Below, one piece after another: positions 28,026 to 30,565 of a stretch of DNA of 34,227 nucleotides (its first letter is position 1; every line of letters starts with the position of its first letter). The notes below the pieces were generated by a model. That model had not been told where the DNA came from. It made no database searches and was given only the letters and a program-made list of their open reading frames with translations. The position numbers were made by a program, and so were the translations under genes. This stretch comes from Rhodobacter sp. (GTDB taxonomy: Bacteria > Pseudomonadota > Alphaproteobacteria > Rhodobacterales > Rhodobacteraceae), in assembly GCA_026708635.1 (NCBI GenBank), contig JAPOUP010000083.1, positions 1 through 34,227 of the forward strand, written 5' to 3'.

Positions 28026-28043
28026 TGTCAACCAAAACTTACA
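28026..28043. promoter_or_regulatory. PpsR/CrtJ operator of bchF
   Basis: Exact TGT-N12-ACA. The symmetry extends to TGTGT...ACACA (28024-28045). It lies 66 bases upstream of the bchF start and includes TTGACA on the minus strand (28026-28031), a probable -35 element, so PpsR binding would block polymerase. This would place the head of the bchF-cycA run under PpsR. Confidence 0.8.
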
Positions 28044-28162: not shown

Positions 28163-28180
28163 TGTCTAATTTCTTTGACA
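28163..28180. promoter_or_regulatory. PpsR/CrtJ operator facing ppaA
   Basis: Exact TGT-N12-ACA whose right half is part of TTGACA on the plus strand (28175-28180). It lies about 100 bases upstream of the first ppaA start. This suggests that PpsR controls ppaA, and possibly its own gene downstream. Confidence 0.65.
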
Positions 28181-28196
28181 TCGCGGTCCTTTTGAA

Positions 28197-28384
28197 AGAG
28201 ACTATGCGCGCTGACATCCACAGGGTCACCGCCGACGCCGTAGCGGTGGCCTTGCCAGTTCCTTGAGGATCGGTGCCATGGCGGGAAAAAAGAGACTATC
28301 AGCGCTGACATCCATAGGGTCACCGCCGATACCGGAGCGGTGGCCTTCCGGTTCCTTGAGGATCGGTGCCGTGGCGGGAAAGAT
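28197..28384. repeat. Tandem duplication (94 + 93/94 bp) covering the ppaA start
   Basis: Two head-to-tail copies, 28197-28290 and 28291-28384, agree at most positions. They share AGAGACTAT, GCGCTGACATCCA, AGGGTCACCGCCGA, AGCGGTGGCCTT, TTCCTTGAGGATCGGTGCC and TGGCGGGAAA. One base is missing in copy 2, so the two start codons (ATG 28278, GTG 28371) lie exactly 93 bases apart and in frame. Each start has the same GAGGAT ribosome-site candidate. Copy 1 differs by carrying an extra ATG at 28204. Confidence 0.9.
28204..28266 (+). CDS. Possible 20-codon upstream ORF before ppaA
   Basis: ATG 28204 opens a 20-residue frame ending in TGA at 28264-28266, 11 bases before the ppaA ATG and overlapping its ribosome-site candidate. 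AAAGAG lies just upstream. The copy 2 equivalent has lost the ATG. It may couple or regulate ppaA translation, or may be chance. Confidence 0.2.
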   Translation: MRADIHRVTADAVAVALPVP

Positions 28385-29153
28385 CGGCAAGTCCAAGCCG
28401 GGCTCCGGAACCGGGCTGCCCGTCGATGGGCTGGCCCGGACGGTTATCAGGACATTGAGCGAAAAACCCCTTGCGCACCGCAGGAAGCGGCTGGACGAGG
28501 CGCGCGCGGCGCTTTTGGAGGCGTCGCGCGCCGATGAGCCTTTCTCCAACGAGGGGCTTAAGGAGGCGATGGAGTCGCTCGGGATCGGAGAGAACGACAT
28601 CATCGACTTCTGCATCCCCGACGCCGCCCGTGACCTGGGTGAGGGTTGGGTCGATGACACGATGAGTTTCGCGGAGGTGTCGCGCGCCTCCGCGCGCCTT
28701 CATGGGTTCTGCAGGTTTCTCGAAGGGGATTACGGTCACGTCGACCCGCTCGCCGAGGGGTTTTCGATCCTTCTGGTTTCGCTGAGGCGCGAGGATCACT
28801 TCATCGGGCCGGCGGTCCTGGCGAAACAGCTCCGCAGGACGGGCAATTCCGTTGCCCTTATGTCGAACTGTACCGTGGACGAGCTGCTGAAACGGCTGAG
28901 CGTGAAGAGCTATGACTGCCTGATGATTTCCCTTTCATCGCTCGTCGGTCTGGAAAGGGCGGCGACCGCGATCAGCCGCGTCCGGCAGCTGACGGACCGG
29001 CACCTGCCCATATTCCTTGGCGGAGCCGTTCTCGATCACCGTCAGGCGCTGGAGCGTGAGACCGGAGCCGATCTCGTCACGAAAGACATCGACGTCGCAC
29101 TGGACGCCCTGCGCAGGCGACGCGGCCTCGAAAAAGAGGGGATAAGCCAATGA
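28278..29153 (+). CDS. ppaA: PpaA/AerR, cobalamin-binding antirepressor of PpsR
   Basis: PpaA/AerR proteins bind cobalamin and relieve PpsR/CrtJ repression of photosynthesis genes in response to light or oxygen. From ATG 28278 the product has 291 residues; from GTG 28371 it has 260. After a basic linker comes a helical region (about 60-155). A Rossmann-like B12 domain follows with EDHFIG (H174 in the long form) as the probable cobalt ligand, and ISLSSLVG and IFLGGAVL loops. The N-terminal 31 residues of the long form are encoded by the tandem duplication, so the true start is uncertain. The frame also permits TTG 28263. The stop overlaps the ppsR ATG (ATGA). Confidence 0.9.
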   Translation: MAGKKRLSALTSIGSPPIPERWPSGSLRIGAVAGKIGKSKPGSGTGLPVDGLARTVIRTLSEKPLAHRRKRLDEARAALLEASRADEPFSNEGLKEAMESLGIGENDIIDFCIPDAARDLGEGWVDDTMSFAEVSRASARLHGFCRFLEGDYGHVDPLAEGFSILLVSLRREDHFIGPAVLAKQLRRTGNSVALMSNCTVDELLKRLSVKSYDCLMISLSSLVGLERAATAISRVRQLTDRHLPIFLGGAVLDHRQALERETGADLVTKDIDVALDALRRRRGLEKEGISQ

Positions 29154-30565
29154 ACAACGAAGGCCATTACAGCCGGGTCCACGGGTCGGCTCCCGGTATC
29201 GCCCCGCGGTGTTTCAACGACATACTGGCCGCGGCCTCCGATCTGACCTTCGTCGTTTCCGCCGAAGATATGATAGAATCCGTCGTCATCGGCCGCGAGT
29301 CGCGGGATAGCGGTCGGCTGGGCGACTGGGTCGGGCGGCCGATGCGGGAATTCCTGACATCGGAGAGCATTCCCAAGTACGACAGGGCGCTCAGCGCGCT
29401 GCGGGACAATGGGCATGTCCCCAAACGCGTGGAGCTCAACCATACCGACGGCGAAAACTGGCAATACCCGGTACGCTATTCGTTCCACGCCTTTGGACGG
29501 GAAGCGGCGGTTCTGATGGTCGGGCATGATCTTCGCGCCGTCGCCGAAACACAGGAGCAGCTCGTTCTGGCCCAGATCTCGCTCGAGGAGGGATACGAAC
29601 GGCGGCGGGAGTTCGACGCGCGATACCGGATGCTTATGGCGAATACGGCCGAGGCGCTTGTTTTCATGTCGTCGGATGGACGGGTCAGGGATGCCAATAC
29701 GGCCGCCGCGATGCTATTCGGTACGACGGTGGACTCCCTTGTCGGCGCTTCGCTCGCGAAGCAGTTCGAAGGGTTCGCTGACGGTGACTTCGTCGAGAAG
29801 CTGCATTCGGTGGCGGTATCGGAGTTCGAATCCGAGATGTCCCTGCAGACGGTCCGGACGCGTGAAGCCGTCAATGTGGCGCCGAGGATCTTCCGTACGA
29901 TCGGCGAGAGACTGTTTTTCTGTCGGATTTCGCCCGCCGCCGTCGTGAAGACGGAGCCGGACCGGCTGGTCCGGAACCTGCACGCGCTCTTCCTGAAGAG
30001 TACCGACGCCATCGTCATCTGCACTCCCAAGGGCGTCATCAAGGATGTGAACGAGGCCTTTCTCGACCTGACTGGCTTAAGCGGCCTCCAGGAGCTTAGA
30101 GCAAGAAGTCTGGCCGATTTCCTGCAGCGGGGACAGGTCGATCTCAAGATCCTGCTGGACAATACCCTGAGGCTGGGCCGCATGCAGGTCTATTCGACGC
30201 GTCTGTCGAGCGAATTCGGTCCGAAGCGTTCCGTGGAGATCTCGACCGTCTACCTGGATGAGCAGGACAGGCCCGCGGTGGGCCTTGTGTTCAGGGACAT
30301 CGGGCGCATGGAGGCGATGCGCGGCGTCAGGCAGGCCGCGAACCAGACCGATGCGCCCAACCAGAACGTCGTCGACCTCGTGGGGTCCGCGACACTGAAG
30401 GAAATCGTCGCCGAAACCAATGACGTCGTCGAACGGATGTGCATCGGAGCGGCTGTCGAGCTGACGGGAAATAACCGCACCGCTGCGGCGCAGATGCTGG
30501 GTCTGTCGCGGCAGAGCCTATATCTGAAACTCCGCAAATGCGGACTTCTGGAGCGGGACGGCTGA
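29150..30565 (+). CDS. ppsR: PpsR/CrtJ, redox-responsive repressor of photosynthesis genes
   Basis: PpsR binds TGT-N12-ACA palindromes and represses bch, crt and puc genes under oxic conditions; PpaA antagonises it. The 471-residue protein has three PAS-like regions (about 25-130, 157-260 and 275-385) with a helical Q-linker between the first two. A C-terminal Fis-type helix-turn-helix follows (ELTGNNRTAAAQMLGLSRQS, about 437-456). C258 and C431 sit close to the positions of the two redox cysteines of Rhodobacter PpsR/CrtJ; C431 lies at the start of the DNA-binding domain. C21, C291 and C464 are additional. It is translated from an ATGA overlap with ppaA, and the stop codon lies in a hairpin loop. 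Confidence 0.95.
   Translation: MNNEGHYSRVHGSAPGIAPRCFNDILAAASDLTFVVSAEDMIESVVIGRESRDSGRLGDWVGRPMREFLTSESIPKYDRALSALRDNGHVPKRVELNHTDGENWQYPVRYSFHAFGREAAVLMVGHDLRAVAETQEQLVLAQISLEEGYERRREFDARYRMLMANTAEALVFMSSDGRVRDANTAAAMLFGTTVDSLVGASLAKQFEGFADGDFVEKLHSVAVSEFESEMSLQTVRTREAVNVAPRIFRTIGERLFFCRISPAAVVKTEPDRLVRNLHALFLKSTDAIVICTPKGVIKDVNEAFLDLTGLSGLQELRARSLADFLQRGQVDLKILLDNTLRLGRMQVYSTRLSSEFGPKRSVEISTVYLDEQDRPAVGLVFRDIGRMEAMRGVRQAANQTDAPNQNVVDLVGSATLKEIVAETNDVVERMCIGAAVELTGNNRTAAAQMLGLSRQSLYLKLRKCGLLERDG

Follow-up and report, generated by a model that had tools for sequence, protein, structure and literature searches.

Production of two isoforms from a single gene has been described for the antirepressor AerR of R. 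capsulatus. Its short form, SAerR, starts at a CTG corresponding to Leu41 inside the long form, LAerR, and has its own transcript (Yamamoto et al. 2018, PMC6199135). SAerR is devoid of the upper ligand His10 and binds cobalamin regardless of light (Yamamoto et al. 2018, PMC6199135), and it is established that the AerR isoforms have opposite effects (PMC6199135). Two isoforms have also been reported in R. centenum, and a single large form in the case of R. sphaeroides PpaA (PMC6199135).

Here we analysed a ppaA/aerR gene with a duplicated start region in a Rhodobacter sp. contig (the window, that is, the whole stretch of 34,227 nt). By homology, motif and linkage to ppsR/crtJ, the gene is assigned to ppaA/aerR, coding for a B12-binding antirepressor of the AerR/PpaA family. 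The canonical ORF matches the B12-binding domain of Pfam (PF02310) at 1.6e-7, just below the cut-off, and among solved proteins AerR comes closest to it (structure 7te2, E 6e-20, residues 76-244). It contains the lower cobalamin ligand motif ExHxxG (E141 D H143 F I G146), in which H143 and G146 are invariant in 18 sequences. The gene sits in the photosynthesis gene cluster, with bchF upstream in divergent orientation and a PAS-PAS-Fis regulator directly downstream. Light-dependent cobalamin binding and PpsR antirepression may be predicted for the protein as family traits. The ORFs are:

28278-29153, forward strand: ppaA/aerR long ORF, an open frame from ATG, 291 aa (31-residue tail MAGKKRLSALTSIGSPPIPERWPSGSLRIGA plus the canonical protein)
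28371-29153, forward strand: canonical ppaA/aerR ORF from GTG, 260 aa, with the B12-binding domain and ExHxxG at residues 141-146
29150-30565, forward strand: ppsR/crtJ, with PAS domains and a Fis-type HTH; the next gene downstream and the PpaA/AerR partner

The first-pass annotation had placed a head-to-tail repeat at the ppaA start, at 28197-28384. The repeat is indeed there, in two tandem copies of 94 and 93 nt, with a tandem self-match score far above chance (best 41, where 100 shuffles gave no more than 12); its exact ends had to be corrected to 28195-28381:

28195-28288, forward strand: repeat copy 1, 94 nt, with the -10 box, leader, ribosome site, ATG and first codons
28289-28381, forward strand: repeat copy 2, 93 nt, with GAGACT, leader, ribosome site, GTG and first codons

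The duplicated unit thus extends from the -10 box as far as codon 4 of ppaA. The copies are identical at 85 of 94 alignment columns, the rest being eight mismatches and one 1-nt gap, which lies in copy 2. They are recovered as two direct-repeat segments, one of 59 nt (28195/28289, 90% identity, spacing 94) and one of 34 nt (28255/28348, 94%, spacing 93). No tandem repeat of comparable size was found elsewhere in the 34-kb window, and a dispersed element was ruled out, as the repeat DNA occurs at one place only in the genome. Near the ends of the unit there are short direct repeats, GAAAGA. A simple crossover at GAAAGA does not account for an extra AAA at the repeat ends, a point against the reading that we favour below.

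An assembly artefact, in which one real copy was doubled or two strain variants were joined, might be suspected, since this is a single record from a draft genome of 337 contigs. We consider it highly improbable: 9 of the 94 columns (about 9%) are not the same in the two copies, unlike a simple mis-assembly, the geometry typical of the family is kept on both flanks, and estimated contamination is 0.16%.

The two start codons of the duplicated region, ATG 28278 and GTG 28371, are 93 nt (31 codons) apart in the same frame, with no stop codon between them in that frame. Both are preceded by TTGAGGATCGGTGCC, and the ribosome site CCTTGAGGATCGGTGCC is present in each repeat copy:

28265-28268, forward strand: ribosome-site core GAGG of the upstream start, 9 nt before ATG
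28358-28361, forward strand: ribosome-site core GAGG of the downstream start, 9 nt before GTG

A TGA at 28212-28214, within copy 1, closes the frame of the ATG on its upstream side. The matching letters of copy 2 read ..GCG CTG ACA..: with one base fewer between them and the GTG, the TGA there falls out of frame. This bears out the earlier claims that ribosome site and start codon were copied, once as ATG and once as GTG, and that a single-base difference sets the starts 31 codons apart in frame.

The sequence MAGKKRLSALTSIGSPPIPERWPSGSLR would belong to the product of the upstream ATG. As had been proposed from the sequence, the extension of this product is translated leader: its codon usage is non-coding, with a log-odds of -0.35 bits per codon, whereas 31-codon pieces taken from the window's own, real genes have +0.39 +/- 0.17 and none of them scores as low. 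At the composition of the tail, a stretch of 31 codons would be open with a chance of 0.36, and in frame and open with a chance of about 0.12; the openness of the tail is therefore no evidence of selection or function. Folding does not pick a winning start, since both ribosome sites are predicted to be accessible to a similar and only moderate degree (unpaired 0.22-0.46 and 0.26-0.34).

Upstream of the starts there is a promoter with two PpsR-type sites:

28026-28043, forward strand: distal PpsR-type site TGTCAACCAAAACTTACA, TGTN12ACA, 234 nt upstream of ATG and 327 nt upstream of GTG
28163-28180, forward strand: proximal PpsR-type site TGTCTAATTTCTTTGACA, 97 nt from ATG and 190 nt from GTG
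28175-28180, forward strand: -35 box TTGACA, overlapped by the proximal PpsR-type site
28198-28203, forward strand: -10 box GAGACT, 17 nt after the -35 box, inside copy 1 at its left edge

In relatives, the distal site lies on average 233.8 nt from the start (sd 16, range 192-270, n=24) and the proximal site 91 nt (sd 8, range 68-104, n=21). The distances of the ATG, 234 and 97 nt, are thus the standard of the family and those of the GTG, 327 and 190 nt, are not; the upstream ATG retains the ancestral promoter spacing. In the relatives, too, the proximal site overlaps a TTGACA -35 box. The relatives have a -10 consensus GACACT (also GACACT/GACAAT) at a spacing of exactly 17, where the information of the box, 8.6 of 12 bits, peaks over spacings 6-31. 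We do not expect copy 2 to hold a second promoter for a separate transcript of the short form: GAGACT is kept there, but ATCGGT occupies the -35 slot, and there is no -35 box at the right spacing. The promoter is conserved in relatives L009-L036, where the distal PpsR-type site lies some 140 nt farther upstream, close to bchF. Whichever start is used, the family comparison yields a well-defined ppaA promoter, with a PpsR site over the -35 box, a spacing of 17 and GACACT.

Of the family's 395 genomes, 168 gave a PpaA-type match. The best 29 of these 168, other than the window, were taken for comparison, and 28 had a usable start region. In the family alignment nearly all 28 have their N-terminus at the position of GTG 28371. 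The nearest relative among those compared (56% identity) has a single upstream start at that position, an ATG, although relatives' starts were assigned by rule as the nearest ATG before the match, and their use of ATG is partly by construction. Its N-terminus is MKNKDSGQRSGLPVDDVA, to be compared with MAGKIGKSKPGSGTGLPVDGLA in the canonical form of the window. The first conserved Ala is preceded by 22 residues in the canonical form and 53 in the long form; nearly all relatives have 16-31, the outliers being one with 52 (from a doubtful TTG start) and one with 5 (from an internal ATG). Judged from these alignments, the GTG retains the junction with the conserved protein; judged from the promoter geometry, the ATG retains the ancestral distance to the promoter.

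The repeat was looked for in these relatives, and none of the 28 carries a duplication of the ppaA start region. The tandem self-match score of the homologous upstream regions is 7-12 in 27 of the 28. The exception, L035, scores 23 (shuffles of the window region reach at most 12), at another place and with another period: a direct repeat with a 43-nt shift, which precedes its ppaA-like start by some 300-340 nt and is unrelated to the repeat of the window. The only congener compared had no ppaA match; not every member of the genus, then, has ppaA, or perhaps even the photosynthesis cluster as a whole. A search of plasmids returned only distant PpaA, with at most 33% identity.

The canonical GTG could be the only start in use, copy 1 being inert leader and the effect of the duplication a longer 5' untranslated region. 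The conserved protein of the relatives does begin at the GTG position and the codon usage of the tail is non-coding, as this account would have it. However, copy 1 offers an ATG behind the same ribosome site at the ancestral spacing, and we see no reason in the sequence why it should be skipped. We therefore hold exclusive use of the GTG to be unlikely.

An Rfam scan of the leader returned no meaningful match, which argues against a known riboswitch, and the folding of the two-copy leader is not significant (z -1.6). Immediately ahead of the ribosome site, both copies have a 9-bp hairpin, GGTCACCGC/GCGGTGGCC (28224-28251 and 28318-28345). The changes between the copies hit its loop and never its stem, an outcome (0 of 9 in the stem) expected about 15% of the time. 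We do not claim a conserved role for the hairpin, as the stem result is insignificant and the hairpin is absent from the leader of the nearest relative. We also discarded a 20-codon upstream ORF in copy 1 (ATG 28204, MRADIHRVTADAVAVALPVP): with the conserved -10 box reaching to 28203, the ORF would begin ahead of the expected transcript start.

The locus is the outcome of a lineage-specific duplication that looks accidental. We think that it probably makes a tailed PpaA from the ATG, likely the main product, and a minor canonical PpaA from the GTG, with no evolved switch between them. One tandem duplication, lineage-specific among the genomes searched, copied the segment that extends from the -10 box through codon 4. 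In relation to the promoter, ATG 28278, the original start, has stayed at the ancestral distance; in relation to the protein, 31 codons of leader have been inserted after codon 4, bringing a second ribosome site and GTG 28371. Initiation at the ATG would give a 291-residue PpaA with a leader-derived tail of 31 residues, and initiation at the GTG the ordinary PpaA of 260 residues. The tailed form is expected, probably as the main one, because ATG is the better codon, with the same ribosome site and the ancestral promoter distance. The tail is probably tolerated, since the segment behind it already varies in length across the family.

This gene resembles AerR of R. capsulatus in that it codes for an orthologous B12-binding antirepressor beside crtJ/ppsR, with ExHxxG and possibly two products. 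The first-pass annotation had drawn a parallel with LAerR and SAerR. Two possible starts are indeed present, but the parallel does not hold: the boundary between the forms lies elsewhere and no equivalent of His10 was found. The histidine of ExHxxG is His145 in LAerR and His143 in the canonical protein of this locus, whose short form is therefore the counterpart of the long form of R. capsulatus. Relative to the LAerR start, the starts are at -31 and 0 here and at 0 and +40 in R. capsulatus, and the extra-long form has no counterpart in that species. Neither the 31-residue tail nor canonical residues 1-35 contain a histidine; the duplication therefore cannot reproduce the light/B12 difference based on His10. 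At canonical codon 41 there is a CTG (28491-28493) with AGGA just upstream (AGGAAGCGG), the same codon and number as for SAerR. This candidate SAerR-like start, which the closest relatives do not share, may be a coincidence.

It could be argued that the duplication gave birth to two PpaA isoforms, both functional and each with a regulatory role of its own, in the manner of LAerR and SAerR. That two starts in the same frame stand behind identical ribosome sites fits this idea, as do the opposed isoforms of R. capsulatus and the pair reported in R. centenum (PMC6199135). It is set back by the displaced boundary (-31/0 here, 0/+40 in R. capsulatus), by a tail that lacks a histidine for the upper ligand and has non-coding codon usage, by the absence of the duplication from all 28 relatives compared and by the one form of R. 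sphaeroides PpaA (PMC6199135), and we find it quite improbable. Apart from the anatomy nothing speaks positively for an isoform switch, the analysis found no sign that the two starts are regulated, and we give such a switch little credence. We would regard it as equally doubtful that an extra-long PpaA is functional, its tail altering the interaction with PpsR or cobalamin and the ratio of ATG to GTG initiation being tuned by conditions, as in a newborn isoform pair.

We thus return to a lineage-specific duplication that probably yields a mostly tailed PpaA. If both starts are used, it would be a natural case of non-coding leader becoming protein, with a second N-terminus gained in one step, and in a regulator whose isoforms act oppositely in a relative. 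If they are not, it would be an ordinary lineage-specific duplication.

In summary, the gene is an ortholog of R. sphaeroides PpaA, for which, by comparison with the literature, no duplicated start region has been reported. In its head-to-tail arrangement, with GAAAGA near the ends and nested starts, the locus resembles any short tandem duplication that doubles a ribosome site and start codon in frame. It differs from the generic case in that here the duplication has fallen on a photoreceptor gene.
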